Shown here one piece after another: positions 6,485 through 36,412 of a stretch of DNA of 36,531 bases; position 1 is the stretch's first letter; every line of letters starts with the position of its first letter. The notes below the pieces were generated by a model. The model searched no databases. It worked only from the letters and a program-made list of their open reading frames with translations, and was not told where the DNA came from. This DNA is from Holdemania filiformis DSM 12042 (GTDB lineage: Bacteria > Bacillota_I > Bacilli_A > Erysipelotrichales > Erysipelotrichaceae): NCBI RefSeq assembly GCF_000157995.1, contig NZ_GG657556.1, positions 558,967 through 595,497 on the forward strand, given 5' to 3'. The position numbers were made by a program, and so were the translations under genes.

Positions 6485-6710
6485 AGCCATCTACGTTGAA
6501 CGGAAGAAGTAGCGGCTTTGGGAAATCAGAGAGCTCCCGGAGGGTGCAAGGGAGTCAGAAAAAGCAGTGAAAAGTCGTCCGGAAGTTGATTTTCTGAATT
6601 TAAGTAGGAAGATCCGAATGCCGTCGTTACCGGTGAAAGCGCATCTTTGAAGAAAGATGAAGTAAGGTGGTACCGCGCGTGAAGCGTCCTTGTTGCAGGG
6701 CGCTTTTTTT
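6485..6710 (+). promoter_or_regulatory. T-box leader controlling valS
   Basis: The leader has a Stem I region with CGGCTTT (about 6511-6517) able to pair with AAAGTCG on the 3' side, the T-box sequence GGTGGTACCGCG (6666-6677), and a terminator of 8 bp (6683-6690 with 6697-6704) plus a T run. T-boxes bind uncharged tRNA; here the tRNA should be tRNA-Val. GTC and GTT triplets lie in the expected specifier strand (about 6570-6592), but I could not fix which one is read. Confidence 0.92.
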
Positions 6711-20551: not shown

Positions 20552-20776
20552 AGGTATATACAAAGACCAGGACATGATCGTTTCAGAACTTGGATCAGAG
20601 AGGTTTCCGGAAGGTGCGAGGAAGCTGAAAAGGGAAACGGTTACCGCCTGCGAGTATCGCTTTTGAAAAAGCGACGATTCTCATCGTTATTGAGCTTGAG
20701 TGCCTGTTTCATGGAAGAAACAGGAAATAAGGTGGTACCGCGTTGAACAACGTCCTTAATCAAGGGCGTTTTTTTT
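20552..20776 (+). promoter_or_regulatory. T-box leader controlling thrS
   Basis: The T-box sequence GGTGGTACCGCG is at 20731-20742, followed by a terminator with an 8-bp stem (20750-20757 with 20762-20769, one G-T) and eight T. In the Stem I 3' strand an ACC triplet at 20643-20645 is a plausible Thr specifier. Readthrough is expected when tRNA-Thr is uncharged. It governs thrS and probably the overlapping lipoprotein gene. Confidence 0.92.
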
Positions 20777-31060: not shown

Positions 31061-31081
31061 TTGCGGAGGGAGTGCGGGACA

Positions 31082-32173
31082 TTGAAAAAGATTTTAAAAG
31101 GTGTCGGTGCGGTGATCGCCGGGCTGATCGCTTTGATCGTTGGCTATGGGATTTTCATGCAGGTTAATTATTACCGGATCGCGGATTTTCAAAGCGTAGA
31201 GACGGTGAACAATCCGCCGGCGCGGCTCGATGCTGATCAGGAATATACGCTGATGACGTACAATCTCGGCTTTGGAGCGTATTCGGACGACTATTCTTTC
31301 TTCATGGATACCGGAAAGATGAAAGACGGGAAAGCGACGCGGGGAAAGCATGGCCGGGCTTTAAGCAAGGAAGCGGTGATTGCCAATACGCAGGGCAGTC
31401 TCGCCCTGATCCAACAATCATCGCCGGATTTTATATTCCTGCAGGAAGTCGATGTGAAGTCGTCGCGGAGTTATGGCGTCGATCAGGCGGCAATCCTTCG
31501 CTCTGCATTTTCGGGGTATGGCAGCGTCTTTGCCTTGAACTTCCATAGTCCGTATTTAATCGTCCCGCCGCAGGAACCGCATGGCTCGGTGCAGTCCGGA
31601 TTGTTGACGCTGTCGAATTGGCATGTGGATGAAAATGTGCGGCGGCAGTTTCCTGTCGACGGCTCTTTTATTACAAAGTTTACCGACTTGGACCGGTGTT
31701 TTCTGATCAGTCGGTTAGGTTTAGACAACGGAAAAGAGCTGGTGCTGATTAACGTTCATCTGTCAGCCTACGATCAGGGCGGAACGATCCGCGCGCAGCA
31801 GCTGGCCTTGCTCAACCAGGTGCTGATTCAGGAGCGCGAACAGGGAAATTATGTAATCGCGGGCGGTGATTTTAATCATGACATCGCCGGTACGTTGGAT
31901 TTCTTTCCTTCCCAGCAGCAGGTTCCGGATTGGATTTTTGCGATGAACACTGCGGATCTGGCAGAAGGGTATCACTTTGTTCGGGCAGATAACGCCGATG
32001 AAACTGCGACCTGCCGCGGTGCGGATATTCCGTTTGAAGCGGGGGTCACGTACCAGGCGATCGTCGACGGATTCTTGGTTTCGGATAATCTTGCGGCGAC
32101 AGCGGAGAATATCCAGAATGACTATCGGTATTCCGATCATAATCCGGTCGTATTGAAATTCAGAATGAATTAG
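31082..32173 (+). CDS. Membrane-anchored endonuclease/exonuclease/phosphatase-fold protein
   Basis: The 363-residue protein has an N-terminal membrane anchor (about 5-28) and an extracellular EEP domain. Motifs of the fold are YNLGFG, FLQEVD (metal Glu, about 127), NVHLSAY, AGGDFNHD and SDHNPV at the C-terminus (catalytic His). Such proteins include nucleases, sphingomyelinases and inositol phosphatases; the substrate cannot be assigned. The start is TTG 31082 (reads as MKKILKG); CGGAGGG lies 11 bases upstream. The frame is open back to 31061, upstream of the site. It forms its own unit with a terminator after it. Confidence 0.87.
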   Translation: MKKILKGVGAVIAGLIALIVGYGIFMQVNYYRIADFQSVETVNNPPARLDADQEYTLMTYNLGFGAYSDDYSFFMDTGKMKDGKATRGKHGRALSKEAVIANTQGSLALIQQSSPDFIFLQEVDVKSSRSYGVDQAAILRSAFSGYGSVFALNFHSPYLIVPPQEPHGSVQSGLLTLSNWHVDENVRRQFPVDGSFITKFTDLDRCFLISRLGLDNGKELVLINVHLSAYDQGGTIRAQQLALLNQVLIQEREQGNYVIAGGDFNHDIAGTLDFFPSQQQVPDWIFAMNTADLAEGYHFVRADNADETATCRGADIPFEAGVTYQAIVDGFLVSDNLAATAENIQNDYRYSDHNPVVLKFRMN

Positions 32174-32196
32174 TTGAAGGTTAGGGTGTGATAGAG

Positions 32197-32230
32197 AGGG
32201 CTTCGGCATAATGGCCGGGGTCTTTTTTTT
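32197..32230 (+). terminator. Terminator before the polysaccharide operon
   Basis: An 11-bp stem with several G-T pairs (32197-32207 with 32214-32224), 6-base loop, followed by T residues. Confidence 0.75.
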
Positions 32231-32461
32231 ATGAATTTGTTAGGGATCGCTTCGTTATAATTGCGTGGCTGAATAACCATACAGGACATGAATTTGGTTG
32301 TTGATTACATTTAAGCCCCTTTTTATGGCAAAAAATCACACATTTTTTGACAAACAAAATTCAATGCCAAAAACTGGTAAAATCGTTTATTTTTAATACA
32401 TGTCCCATTATAAATGGCTTATTTCTTTGTGTCAATAATAGTGTACATTATCTGATGGTTA
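32231..32461 (+). other. A+T-rich upstream region of the polysaccharide operon
   Basis: No coding frame. It holds isolated promoter-like boxes (TATAAT at 32256-32261, TTGACA at 32347-32352, TATAAA at 32409-32414) but none forms a well-spaced pair, so the transcription start is not fixed. The region is clearly richer in A and T than the genes upstream. Confidence 0.5.
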
Positions 32462-32517
32462 GCGACTGTTAGAGATTTCGCAGGGGGCGAAGGAAGCAGT
32501 TCTTTTTTTATGAACTG
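32462..32517 (+). promoter_or_regulatory. Candidate leader attenuator of the polysaccharide operon
   Basis: GACTG (32464-32468) pairs with CAGTT (32497-32501) and encloses a stem TTCGC (32477-32481) / GCGAA (32487-32491); seven T follow at 32503-32509, as in a terminator. CAGTTC (32497-32502) can instead pair with GAACTG (32512-32517), which would break the first hairpin. This layout fits an attenuator, and the operon encodes a NusG-like antiterminator. Confidence 0.5.
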
Positions 32518-32543
32518 ATTCCCATCGAGAGAGGGGGAGCAGC

Positions 32544-33224
32544 ATGACCAAAGGTGAAAGCATCGAGCTTAGAACAAGGATATCGGTATCATTATCAATA
32601 AAAAAATGGATCAGCAAAGGGATTAAGCGTCTCATCGATATCCTGGCAGGGATTGCCGGATGTCTGCTTCTGATTCCGCTTTACTTCTATGTCCGCCATA
32701 AAAATCATAAGGAAGGCGATTATGATCCGGTGTTCTTTAAACAGACACGGATTGGCAAGGATGGCAAACCGTTTGAAATGATCAAATTCCGTTCGATGAT
32801 TCCGAATGCAGAAGCCCTCCTTGAACAGTTGATGAAGACAGATCCCAAGATCCGGGAAGAATATACAATACATAAAAAATTAAGACAGGATCCGCGCATT
32901 ACCGCTGCGGGAGAATTTTTAAGAAAGACGTCGCTCGATGAATTCCCGCAGTTAATCAACGTTCTGAAGGGCGAAATGACGCTGATCGGTCCGCGTCCTT
33001 ATCTGCCGCGGGAGAAAGAAGATATGGGCGAATATTATAATCAGATTATTCAGGTCAAACCCGGCTTAGGCGGGTTGTGGCAAGTCCGGGGACGAAGTGA
33101 TCTCAGCTTCCACGACCGCTGCGAACTGGATAAAGAATATGTCGAAAACTGGTACCTGTTGTGGGATTTCAAGATTCTGTTGAAAACGTTGCAGATTGTC
33201 CTTTTAAGAAAGGGGGCAATGTGA
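32544..33224 (+). CDS. Undecaprenyl-phosphate sugar-1-phosphate transferase (priming glycosyltransferase)
   Basis: This enzyme moves a sugar-1-phosphate from a UDP-sugar to undecaprenyl phosphate, the first membrane step of capsule or exopolysaccharide repeat synthesis. The 226 residues start with a short N-terminus and one hydrophobic segment (about 30-50), then the conserved catalytic domain: KQTRIGKDGKPF, IKFRSM, LRKTSLDEFPQL, LIGPRP, and PGLGGLWQVRGRS. It is the short (WbaP C-terminal/EpsL) type with no N-terminal four-helix domain. The SD GGGGG is about 8 bases before the ATG. Its stop overlaps the next start (TGATG), so the NusG-like gene is coupled. Confidence 0.95.
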   Translation: MTKGESIELRTRISVSLSIKKWISKGIKRLIDILAGIAGCLLLIPLYFYVRHKNHKEGDYDPVFFKQTRIGKDGKPFEMIKFRSMIPNAEALLEQLMKTDPKIREEYTIHKKLRQDPRITAAGEFLRKTSLDEFPQLINVLKGEMTLIGPRPYLPREKEDMGEYYNQIIQVKPGLGGLWQVRGRSDLSFHDRCELDKEYVENWYLLWDFKILLKTLQIVLLRKGAM

Positions 33225-33736
33225 TGCGCTGGTATTTTGTTGAAGTTGAAAAGCATCATGAGGAAGATGTCCTGGAATTAATGAAAAGCTCACCTTTCGA
33301 AGCTTTCCTACCCAAGAAACAACGTTATTTCAAAAAGCAGGTATTGGTGACCTGGGTAGAGCGCCTGTTATTTCCAGGAACGATCATGATTACCAGTGAT
33401 TTTCCTCAAGCTGAATTTACAAAACAGTTCAACGAATGGCTTTCTCAGCATTCCGATATATCTCAGTGGATTCATTTAGAAGAAAAAGAGTATTTCTCCC
33501 TCCAGGAAGATGAACGGCTTTTCCTGAATTCATTAATGAATGAACAGCATGTAATTCCGATTTCAACCGGCTTCTTAAATGAGAAGCAATTAATTGTCGA
33601 ATCCGGACCTTTGCAAGGGTTGGAATCACGGATAAAGAAGATTGACCGGCATCAGCGAACCGCGCAGGTTCGGTTTCAGATCTGCGGGCAGATGATGTTG
33701 CTTAACCTCGGATTAATTGTTAAACAAAGTGATTGA
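33224..33736 (+). CDS. loaP: NusG-family transcription antiterminator (LoaP-like)
   Basis: The 170-residue protein is a specialised NusG paralogue. The N-terminal NGN domain opens MRWYFVEVEKHHE and continues through LLFPGTIMI; the C-terminal KOW domain is near residues 125-165 (VESGPLQGLESRIKKIDRH). General NusG genes sit beside secE and rplK; this one is the second gene of a polysaccharide operon, as for LoaP of Firmicutes and UpxY/RfaH elsewhere. LoaP proteins bind an RNA hairpin and let polymerase pass terminators over long operons. It is preceded by a possible leader attenuator and followed by a terminator (33812-33835). The start ATG overlaps the sugar transferase stop by one base. Confidence 0.87.
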   Translation: MRWYFVEVEKHHEEDVLELMKSSPFEAFLPKKQRYFKKQVLVTWVERLLFPGTIMITSDFPQAEFTKQFNEWLSQHSDISQWIHLEEKEYFSLQEDERLFLNSLMNEQHVIPISTGFLNEKQLIVESGPLQGLESRIKKIDRHQRTAQVRFQICGQMMLLNLGLIVKQSD

Positions 33737-33811
33737 ATTTGATTTGGATAGTTGCATGGGCACTTCCAATTCAGTTTCATGGTTATTTTTTACAAACTCA
33801 TCGGAAGCTTG

Positions 33812-33835
33812 AGGTGGCGAAGCCTACCTTTTTTT
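33812..33835 (+). terminator. Terminator inside the polysaccharide operon, after the NusG-like gene
   Basis: AGGTGGC (33812-33818), loop GAA, GCCTACCT (33822-33829) with one bulged base, then a T run to 33835. It lies between the antiterminator gene and the LCP gene. Confidence 0.7.
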
Positions 33836-33860
33836 ATTAATCGACAAGGATGTGACAAAA

Positions 33861-34910
33861 TTGAAGAAAAAACAGAAAAGAAACAAAACAAAGATTTTGT
33901 TGATTGTGGCGGGCACGTTAATAGGTTTAATCGCTGTGATTGGCATCAGCGGAAATTTGTATGTAGATTCGTTATTAAATAAAACAAATCGTTCAAAGAA
34001 ACTAACTGATGAACAAGCAATGGTGAATCAGGAAGTTAAAGATCAAGTGCAGGATCATCAAATTGTGAATATTGCTTTATTCGGTTCCGACAATCAGGAT
34101 TGGAACGAGTGGACGGACACTGAAATGCAGCGGTCCGACGCGACAAAGATTATCTCCTTAGATTTTAATGCGAAGAAAATCAAAATCACTTCATTACAAC
34201 GAGATATTCTAGTCTATCTTCCTGAGGCCTACAATGATTATGATAAGTTGAATCATGCCCATTGGCGCGGAGGTCCTGAGTTAGCGATTCAGACGATCAA
34301 TTTGAATTTTGATATGGACATTACGCAATATGTCGGATTCAGTTTTGAAGCAACGGTAAAGTTAGTCGATTTAGTCGGCGGAATTGATCTTTATCTGACA
34401 GCTGAGGAAACACATCAAAAGATTCGTGATTTACAAATTGACGGCGATGATGGGGTCTATCATCTGAATGGTCAACAAGTGAAAGAGTATTGCCGGATCC
34501 GGACCATTGACGATGACTTTCATCGCATGAAACGTCAGAATACCGTCATTATGGCCATCCTGACAGAACTCAGAACAAAGAATTTCTGGGAACTGATGGA
34601 TATCGTTGAAGACATGATGCCTTGGATCGAAACGAACCTGACCAACGATCAAATTAAGAATTATATTATGAATTTACTGACTTTTGATTTAAAGCATATT
34701 GATCAATACCAGATTCCTTCTACCGGAATGGAAGCTATCTACAAAACTGTAGAATATAATGATTTCAGTCCATTGTATGTAATGGACAGTTATCAACAGA
34801 TGGTGAAGGATATTCATGAGAACATCTATGAAATGGAAAATTATCAGCCAAGTACAAAGGTAATTAAACTTGAGAAGTCAATCTATGAGAAATTCGGAGG
34901 ACCCGAATAA
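33861..34910 (+). CDS. LytR-CpsA-Psr family glycopolymer ligase
   Basis: LCP proteins attach polysaccharide or teichoic acid from the lipid carrier to peptidoglycan outside the membrane. The 349 residues have a lysine-rich cytosolic start, one membrane helix (about 11-33) and the LCP domain: NIALFGSD, RSDATKIISLD, ITSLQRDILVYLP (conserved Arg-Asp), LVDLVGGIDLYL, and YCRIRTIDDDFHRMKRQ. The start is uncertain: TTG 33861 has AAGGATG at good distance, while the in-frame GTG at 33852 touches that site; I chose TTG. Its stop lies in the loop of a terminator-like hairpin. The gene is more A+T-rich than the genes before 32200. Confidence 0.92.
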   Translation: MKKKQKRNKTKILLIVAGTLIGLIAVIGISGNLYVDSLLNKTNRSKKLTDEQAMVNQEVKDQVQDHQIVNIALFGSDNQDWNEWTDTEMQRSDATKIISLDFNAKKIKITSLQRDILVYLPEAYNDYDKLNHAHWRGGPELAIQTINLNFDMDITQYVGFSFEATVKLVDLVGGIDLYLTAEETHQKIRDLQIDGDDGVYHLNGQQVKEYCRIRTIDDDFHRMKRQNTVIMAILTELRTKNFWELMDIVEDMMPWIETNLTNDQIKNYIMNLLTFDLKHIDQYQIPSTGMEAIYKTVEYNDFSPLYVMDSYQQMVKDIHENIYEMENYQPSTKVIKLEKSIYEKFGGPE

Positions 34911-34921
34911 GGTTCTTTTTT
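34898..34921 (+). terminator. Terminator-like hairpin over the end of the LCP gene
   Basis: AGGACC (34898-34903) pairs with GGTTCT (34911-34916) with one G-T pair, followed by T residues to 34921. The LCP stop (34908-34910) is in the loop. Confidence 0.6.
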
Positions 34922-34949
34922 AGTGAGAAGAGAAAAGGGAGAGAAGAGA

Positions 34950-35657
34950 ATGTACGAGAACGACGAAATTGAAATCGATTTGTCGCGGGTGTTTGAAATC
35001 ATTAAAAAGTATTTCAAACCCTTTGCGCTGATCATCCTAGCTGCTTCCATTGTGGCCGCTTTGATCACGCTGTTTCTGATACCAAAGAAATACACAGCGG
35101 AAGCAAAACTAATTATTGTCCAGAAGTCCAATCCGGACAGCCAACAGATTAGCTACAATGATCTTCAAACGTCTCAAAAGCTGGTGAATACCTACAGCGA
35201 GATATTGAAGAGTGAAGCGATCAGCGATGAAGTGATTCAGAATCTGAAGTTAGAAGACTTAGATACAGAAGGATATCAGAAGATCGTTAAAATCAGCTCA
35301 GTGAAAGATACGGAAGTCATCACGATTGCGGTAACGTCAAAAGATCCAAAAGAAGCCGCAGTGATTGCGAATGAGATCGTGGATGTATTTCGAGATAAGA
35401 TCTATTCCATTATGAATATTGAAAATGTGACCGTTTTAAATTCCGCAAAGATCCCAGAGAAGAAATCGAGCCCATCGAATGTTAAAAATACATTGATTGG
35501 TTTCTTACTCGGCTGTGTCATTGACGGCTGCATTGTTTTATACATTCTATTGAATGATCGAAATATCCGGACCGAAGAAGAATTAAAACAGATTTTTGAT
35601 TATCCGATTATCGGTTTAATACCTGATATGACGCATGGGACAGGAGGTGCAGAATAA
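34950..35657 (+). CDS. Wzz/CpsC-type chain-length and kinase-modulator protein
   Basis: The 235-residue membrane protein has two transmembrane helices (about 25-45 and 180-205) flanking an extracellular domain with coiled segments (LVNTYSEILKSEAI, DPKEAAVIANEIVD) and a proline-containing approach to the second helix (AKIPEKKSSPS). This is the Wzz/CpsC/CapA layout. It regulates polymer length and activates the CpsD kinase encoded next. The start is ATG 34950 with AAGGGAGAG upstream; the in-frame GTG at 34923 lacks a site. Its stop overlaps the next start by one base (TAATG). Confidence 0.92.
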   Translation: MYENDEIEIDLSRVFEIIKKYFKPFALIILAASIVAALITLFLIPKKYTAEAKLIIVQKSNPDSQQISYNDLQTSQKLVNTYSEILKSEAISDEVIQNLKLEDLDTEGYQKIVKISSVKDTEVITIAVTSKDPKEAAVIANEIVDVFRDKIYSIMNIENVTVLNSAKIPEKKSSPSNVKNTLIGFLLGCVIDGCIVLYILLNDRNIRTEEELKQIFDYPIIGLIPDMTHGTGGAE

Positions 35658-36412
35658 TGTTAAGAGTTGGAGAAGAATTAATTACTATTCTGGATCCTGA
35701 ATCTTCTGCATCCGAAGCTTACCGAACATTAAGAACCAATATTCTGATGCGGAACTTCGATCGGGATATGAAAGTCATCAACATTATTTCAACAACTGCC
35801 CAGGAAGGAAAAACGACTTGTGTTCTCAATCTTGCCATGGTTTACGCTCAGTTACAGAAAAAAGTCTTAGTCATTGATTTAGACTTACGGATGCCAACGA
35901 TTCATAAAAAACTGAAGTTAAAGAATAAAAAAGGCATTTCGGATATCATCGGTCATCAAGCAGAATTTGAGGAAGTTGTTTTACAGCCTTATGAAAATGT
36001 GGATGTAATTACCGCAGGAACGAAGATTCCGTTTGCTTCCGAGTTTATCCAATCGAACGCCTTAAAAGAATTCATTGAGGAGAGAAAAAAAGAATATGAC
36101 TTAATCCTTTTAGACTGCCCGCCGGTTGGATTGGTGACGGATGGAATAGTGGCTGCCTCATATTGCGATGGAACGATCTTGGTTTGTGCCTCGAATCGAA
36201 ATGACCGAAAAGAATTACTCCGAGTCAAAGATCAGTTTGAACAGACACAAGTGAATGTCATTGGAATTGTCATGACGATGATGCCAGTTCAGCGAAAATA
36301 TTATAACAGTTACGGTTATCGATATAGTGATTCGCAGAAAAAGACAGCACAGAAGAAAAAGAAAAATTCAATCATGTCTTCCATTACGAAAAAAGGCGAT
36401 AAAAAGAAATGA
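35657..36412 (+). CDS. cpsD: CpsD/CapB-type tyrosine-protein kinase (BY-kinase)
   Basis: Cytosolic bacterial tyrosine kinase of 251 residues that works with the Wzz/CpsC membrane protein and controls polysaccharide assembly. Walker A is AQEGKTT near residues 46-53, Walker A' is VIDLDLRMP near 73-81, and Walker B is LILLDCPP near 150. The C-terminal Tyr cluster RKYYNSYGYRY (about 213-223) is the autophosphorylation tail. The activating motif of the partner is on a separate gene, the Firmicute arrangement. It overlaps cpsB by four bases (ATGA). Confidence 0.95.
   Translation: MLRVGEELITILDPESSASEAYRTLRTNILMRNFDRDMKVINIISTTAQEGKTTCVLNLAMVYAQLQKKVLVIDLDLRMPTIHKKLKLKNKKGISDIIGHQAEFEEVVLQPYENVDVITAGTKIPFASEFIQSNALKEFIEERKKEYDLILLDCPPVGLVTDGIVAASYCDGTILVCASNRNDRKELLRVKDQFEQTQVNVIGIVMTMMPVQRKYYNSYGYRYSDSQKKTAQKKKKNSIMSSITKKGDKKK

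Follow-up and report, generated by a model that had tools for sequence, protein, structure and literature searches.

The capsular polysaccharide loci of Bacteroides fragilis combine invertible promoters, the Mpi invertase and the UpxY antiterminator (PMC12632263). A survey of invertons in a defined gut community found UpxY genes beside invertons of Bacteroidota; for Bacillus-like Firmicutes, the median inverton count was 0 (PMC11892184). Within the Bacillota, the RecV-dependent switches of Clostridioides difficile control surface structures by DNA inversion (PMC7446863). For LoaP of Bacillus velezensis to act, the leader of its target must contain a UNCG hairpin and, after it, a terminator; LoaP acts on terminators that lie downstream of its hairpin (PMC12691694). 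In the literature that we searched, which covered few subscription papers and in which absence is not proof, no paper joined LoaP or Holdemania to invertons, and the two matches for Erysipelotrichaceae together with invertible promoters appeared unrelated. Two-layer control is known from Bacteroides, and appears to be unreported in this branch of Gram-positive bacteria.

Here we describe a region of Holdemania filiformis DSM 12042 that appears to form the regulatory end of an operon for a phase-variable surface polysaccharide. This view forms part of a joint best explanation, which we consider likely on the strength of comparative sequence analysis, that promoter inversion followed by LoaP antitermination controls the operon, in a manner convergent with Mpi and UpxY of Bacteroides. 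The window (the whole stretch of DNA that was analysed, 36,531 nucleotides) lies in a 659-kb contig of a 3.9-Mb genome (Holdemania, Erysipelotrichaceae), the closest relatives of which in our collection are Holdemania sp. Marseille-P2844 (G003) and Holdemania massiliensis AP2 (G002).

Like B. fragilis, Holdemania has several polysaccharide loci, each with a consensus promoter flanked by inverted repeats, together with a NusG-paralogue antiterminator at the operon start and a candidate global serine invertase encoded elsewhere. Unlike B. fragilis, it belongs to the Bacillota and uses sigma-70-type hexamers and a LoaP-like antiterminator (UpxY score 40, cut-off 100); its target is an RNA hairpin-terminator leader located after loaP, no UpxZ-like gene was seen, and one of its polysaccharide loci is without an antiterminator gene. 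To our knowledge, the sequence of the Holdemania recombination site is unrelated to that of B. fragilis. The dfn and mln leaders of B. velezensis offer a second parallel, since there too a LoaP protein is coupled to a small RNA hairpin and then an intrinsic terminator. However, the Holdemania operon is for polysaccharide rather than polyketide, the hairpin loops are AUGG, UCAG or UGCG and not strictly UNCG, the target is inside the operon after loaP, and the promoter is invertible. With C. difficile, whose RecV is a tyrosine recombinase, Holdemania shares DNA inversion in the Bacillota controlling surface structures, but its sites look to be of the serine-invertase type, and a LoaP-like protein serves the target operon.

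The genes of the operon and its upstream border are as follows.

31061-32173: exo/endo-phosphatase gene, the operon's upstream neighbour
32193-32233, + strand: strong intrinsic terminator of the phosphatase gene (-19.7 kcal/mol, z -5.25, 0 of 200 shuffles as good)
32544-33224, + strand: bacterial sugar transferase, WbaP-like, C-terminal domain only (PF02397, 2e-60; TIGR03022, 1.4e-81, under its cut-off)
33224-33736, + strand: loaP-like NusG paralogue, 170 aa (Pfam PF02357; NF033641 LoaP, 115.7 bits)
33852-34910, + strand: LCP (LytR-CpsA-Psr) glycopolymer transferase (PF03816, 8e-30)
34923-35657, + strand: Wzz/CpsC-like chain-length regulator (PF02706; TIGR01006)
35657-36412, + strand: CpsD/Wze-like tyrosine autokinase (TIGR01007, 173.6 bits, over cut-off)

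The terminator at 32193-32233 insulates the operon from the phosphatase gene. Past the window, we read a PHP phosphatase, a UDP-sugar dehydrogenase and a glycosyltransferase from the open reading frames. As expected of a LoaP gene, the loaP-like gene adjoins a long biosynthetic operon (sugar transferase, LCP, Wzz and Wze, with the genes past the window). Elsewhere in the window there are two T-box leaders, at 6487-6694 and 20554-20760 (Rfam RF00230, 121 and 104 bits).

The window NusG paralogue scored 115.7 bits against LoaP (NF033641), compared with 40.1 against UpxY (NF033644) and 29.5 against NusG. As the curated cut-offs are 125 bits for LoaP and 100 bits for UpxY, the protein falls under both; by its sequence it is best classed as a diverged member of the LoaP family, which is the best family by far. 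These scores and the neighbouring genes bear out the suggestion of an earlier note on this DNA that the NusG-like protein is LoaP-like and encoded early in a polysaccharide operon. The protein is 92% identical to its counterpart in Marseille-P2844 and 68% to that in H. massiliensis AP2, and its sole solved relative by sequence search is PDB 8f5g. The RNA-contact residues of B. velezensis LoaP are E40, R41 and I143 (PMC12691694). The same genome encodes two more LoaP-like proteins (C25:235718, 98.5 bits; C25:253971, 158.7 bits) plus the housekeeping nusG; a "LoaP" match on contig C35 was rejected, as it is this housekeeping gene, beside rpmG and secE. Relatives of the window protein at two loci, L010 and L039, score over the cut-off (148 and 159 bits, respectively). 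The full-scoring gene at L039 (7965-8480) has a fixed promoter and lies upstream of asnA-like and purine biosynthesis genes, a context that is neither a polysaccharide nor a polyketide operon, and the R2 leader element is absent there. Adjacent LoaP-like genes in tandem pairs were also observed in four genomes of a sister family (G037, G048, G052 and G054).

Upstream of the operon we found the elements of an invertible promoter.

32325-32352, + strand: left recombination site, 28 bp, with core AC at 32338-32339 (consensus TGTaAcAaAAAgT-AC-ACTTTTaTTGACA over 14 sites)
32338-32444, no strand assigned: invertible promoter segment, 107 bp, OFF in this assembly (matches the orthologue only when reverse-complemented)
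32407-32435, - strand: perfect consensus promoter TTGACA-17-TATAAT (12/12 match), directed away from the operon
32430-32457, - strand: right recombination site, with core GT at 32443-32444 (from the site alignment)

The earlier note, whose range began at 32462, missed this segment. After inversion, and only then, positions 32338-32444 match the Marseille-P2844 orthologue at 97 of 107 positions; the uninverted alignment gives 68 matches in 118 columns, which is about the best of 300 shuffles (67). The TTGACA/TATAAT promoter of Marseille-P2844 is directed at the operon (ON) and that of the window is OFF, so that both orientations are known between species, with the exchange point located in the ACAC common to both arms. 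A scan of the window found no consensus promoter directed at the operon. When the 14 arms were aligned, they formed a 28-bp near-palindrome, TGTaAcAaAAAgT-A[C/G]-ACTTTTaTTGACA, with its centre of symmetry on the 2-bp core (palindrome match fraction 0.55 at the core centre, 0.43 at the next best centre). The core letter, C or G, is the same in the two arms of each inverton, and the -35 box forms part of the recombination site. Serine invertases use near-palindromic sites centred on a 2-bp core.

A fixed-length inverton pattern occurs four times in the genome of H. filiformis, once in H. massiliensis AP2 and twice in Marseille-P2844. The four invertons of H. filiformis, three before polysaccharide loci and one by a PTS operon, are of almost constant length and are oriented as follows.

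Window: OFF
C25, loaP paralogue: OFF
C30:305519, loaP-less LCP-wzz-wze locus: ON
C24:402395, PTS operon: facing away

The search of 118 relatives gave three further matches to the pattern, none of which shows the site consensus beyond the letters that were matched; a single match came from the reversed control. A 12/12 promoter flanked by 14-bp arms at L010, which belongs to another genus, was rejected as an inverton, given that such arms number 30, compared with 30.3 in shuffles. The PTS inverton (L071:10380-10495, corresponding to C24:402380-402495) is upstream of a mannose-family PTS operon in which EIIA, EIIC and EIID were identified; its neighbours include a SIS-domain protein and a GntR regulator, and its promoter is directed away, with the same orientation in a sister species. 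We also observed a conserved flank, CAGGACAT...GTTGTTGATTACATTT (window 32280-32325), at a near-fixed distance outside the left recombination site. It is present at the three polysaccharide invertons, but not at the PTS one, and is possibly an activator or recombination-accessory site.

Two of the three polysaccharide inverton loci of H. massiliensis are assembly gaps, CCTACA-N493-TGTAGG and GTCACA-N245-TGACGG. Three of the four gap edges fall on the recombination core, and the fourth is ~12 bases outside; elsewhere in this assembly, gaps are spaced some 40 kb apart on average (5 in 200 kb). Mixed orientations in the culture would explain gaps at half-sites simply, whilst such gaps can have other causes, and it is indirectly, from these gaps, that we infer inversion within a strain. 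As to the enzyme, all three inverton-bearing species share three conserved families of ~200-aa serine recombinases, and the inverton-free G001 has just one of these families. They carry a resolvase domain, their best PHROG match is "DNA invertase" (1e-46 to 1e-56), and they score 38-59 bits against the Mpi family NF009949, under its cut-off of 272 bits. We regard these three small proteins as candidate invertases. None of the three is encoded next to the window inverton, and an invertase among them would therefore work in trans, like Mpi in Bacteroides. The tyrosine recombinases of the genome are less likely candidates, since two are XerC/XerD-like and two are beside hsdS-like genes. The latter arrangement (L074 and L075) suggests that the same genome has a phase-variable type I restriction system.

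The hairpins predicted within the operon are listed below.

32464-32509, + strand: hairpin 1, leader terminator or attenuator upstream of the sugar transferase gene and loaP (46/46 conserved; recurs before the paralogous loaP)
33745-33768, + strand: candidate LoaP-recognition hairpin TGGATAGTTGCATGGGCACTTCCA, motif AGTTG-N5-GCACT (outer-stem compensatory changes in the paralogues and L010)
33811-33836, + strand: hairpin 2, terminator between loaP and LCP (conserved in three species and six Holdemania loci)
34892-34921, + strand: hairpin 3, over the LCP stop (weak)

A scan for terminator-like sites gave 11 in 5.5 kb, compared with 5.0 +/- 1.9 in shuffles. Hairpin 1 has 13 pairs (-12 kcal/mol) followed by T7, and its energy alone is unremarkable (z -1.3, with 19 of 200 shuffles equally good). 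Similarly, hairpin 2, with a stem at 33811-33830 followed by T7, has an energy of -8.5 kcal/mol and a z of -1.25 relative to shuffles. Hairpins 1 and 2 stand out by their conservation, and not by folding energy relative to shuffles. Both had been described in the earlier note, and both were found in the two other species, where hairpin 1 is identical at 46 of 46 positions and hairpin 2 (33806-33835) at 30 of 30; the latter is kept in all six aligned Holdemania loci. Between H. massiliensis and the window, identity is 37% for the gene right after hairpin 1, 68% for loaP and 69% for LCP. At one H. massiliensis locus (L100, upstream of 8001), leader and loaP are separated by what looks like a shortened and degenerate sugar transferase gene, and the leader hairpin is unaltered despite this. 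When the same leader hairpin was sought in related operons, as had been suggested, it was found before the paralogous loaP locus, where its stem and apical sequence are unchanged, but not at the loaP-less polysaccharide locus; this distribution may point to a separate tie between hairpin 1 and loaP. A mutually exclusive antiterminator (arms 32492-32502 and 32512-32522) was considered and rejected, as it is missing from the paralogous leaders and hence not general. Hairpin 3, which had also been proposed as a terminator (34898-34921), is probably not one: it is at chance level (z -0.56, with 48 of 200 shuffles equally good), its T-run begins 7 nt past the stem, and in relatives it is eroding, with wobble pairs or a lost T-run (interrupted in H. 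massiliensis).

The intergenic stretch between loaP and LCP is conserved in six Holdemania loci, in which RNAalifold predicts two hairpins. The first, at 33745-33768, was unlisted in the earlier note; it follows the pattern TGGA.AGT.GC-loop-GC.ACT.TCCA, and hairpin 2 sits 42 nt downstream. Its outer stem covaries, being TGGA/TCCA in one locus type and CAAA/TTTG in another. Across seven sequences, the leader structure pairs 92.4% of cells, compared with 85.8% when shuffled, and has 9 two-sided changes, compared with 3.7, with a score that drops when the partner is slid; the alignment was fitted to the structure, so these covariation counts lean towards it. We derived a covariance model from the six Holdemania loci; of the LoaP-linked loci outside the genus, it matched L010, in a different genus of the same family (G033), at E 0.005. 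The L010 hairpin is AGTTG-TTTCG-GCACT, with a UUCG loop; a terminator comes next, and the LoaP gene that is over the cut-off lies downstream of both. A refined model that included L010, when run on the whole genomes of 60 relatives, gave matches below E 1e-10 only in G000 (three), H. massiliensis AP2 (three), Marseille-P2844 (one) and G033 (one); R2 matches above E 0.25 in other genera were taken as chance. The loop is AUGG in the window, and so not UNCG; it is UGCG in one H. massiliensis locus, UUCG in G033 and UCAG elsewhere. The pairing of hairpin and then terminator is present at several LoaP-linked loci. Before the sugar transferase gene, in the first leader, we found no LoaP-type hairpin.

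The leader after loaP (33745-33768, then 33811-33836) is arranged like a LoaP target, which makes LoaP-dependent read-through into the LCP-wzz-wze genes a plausible prediction. In the mechanism that we favour, a trans-acting serine recombinase would flip the 107-bp segment, with its consensus sigma-70 promoter, between the two 28-bp sites. The orientation in the assembly is OFF, and the inverted promoter would transcribe the operon. From the ON promoter, polymerase would get past the attenuator-like hairpin 1 and through the sugar transferase gene and loaP, and would then reach the hairpin at 33745-33768 and the terminator, hairpin 2. LoaP, by binding to the former, would allow read-through of the latter into LCP, wzz, wze and the rest. 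We infer both the termination at the hairpins and the binding by LoaP.

The earlier note had gone further, proposing that the protein made early in the operon lets the rest be transcribed and so reinforces its own expression. Entry into LCP-wzz-wze remains plausible from the leader layout, but the self-reinforcement is not supported. It would require LoaP to relieve hairpin 1 as well as the later terminators, in positive feedback on its own synthesis, from a promoter that is ordinary and fixed. The strict conservation of hairpin 1, and its occurrence before two loaP-bearing loci and not before the loaP-less one, do fit such a model. However, both hairpin 1 and loaP precede the LoaP-type hairpin, and the first leader yielded no hairpin of this type. 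By the cis mechanism that is known, LoaP could therefore not relieve hairpin 1. Furthermore, the window has no operon-facing consensus promoter, and the consensus one that it does have points the other way, with the opposite orientation in a relative. Thus, we consider the feedback model unlikely.

We think it very unlikely that the promoter at 32435-32407 is itself fixed, serving in a divergent or antisense direction, with the difference between sister species reflecting an old rearrangement and no continuing switching. The C25 paralogue and the PTS locus, which are the other loci comparable across species, do have the same orientation in both species; against this, the same sites recur at four loci of one genome with core dinucleotides matching within each pair, and the H. 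massiliensis gaps are bounded at half-sites at two loci. Energies close to the shuffle level would suit a reading in which the hairpins serve as ordinary terminators at gene borders or as signals for mRNA processing, with the NusG paralogue at work elsewhere. That reading is also quite improbable in light of the strict conservation of the hairpins next to diverged genes, the covariation at 33745-33768, and the paired hairpin and terminator at several LoaP-linked loci. Promoter inversion followed by LoaP antitermination is the explanation that we retain.

The polysaccharide locus without a loaP gene (L070:9500-9870) combines a LoaP-type leader with an invertible promoter in the ON orientation. 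Within this locus (C30:305510-305868), which has its own invertible promoter, the leader is related to that of the window, with the terminator kept and the LoaP-type hairpin partly degraded. A tentative extension of the mechanism, on which we are doubtful, is a cross-locus AND gate, in which the C30 locus would need both its own promoter ON and LoaP supplied in trans from another ON locus. If true, this gate of inversion and antitermination would decide which surface polysaccharides combine.

A promoter that is "missing" in a single assembly can simply be in the OFF orientation, and caution is warranted in reading such assemblies. If the two-stage mechanism is true, Holdemania assemblies and RNA-seq are predicted to show mixed ON and OFF cells, and LoaP would have a natural phase-variable context. 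It would also mean that a whole control strategy has evolved convergently in an unrelated Gram-positive gut genus, from different parts, namely a LoaP-like protein, an RNA hairpin-terminator leader and a different recombination site.
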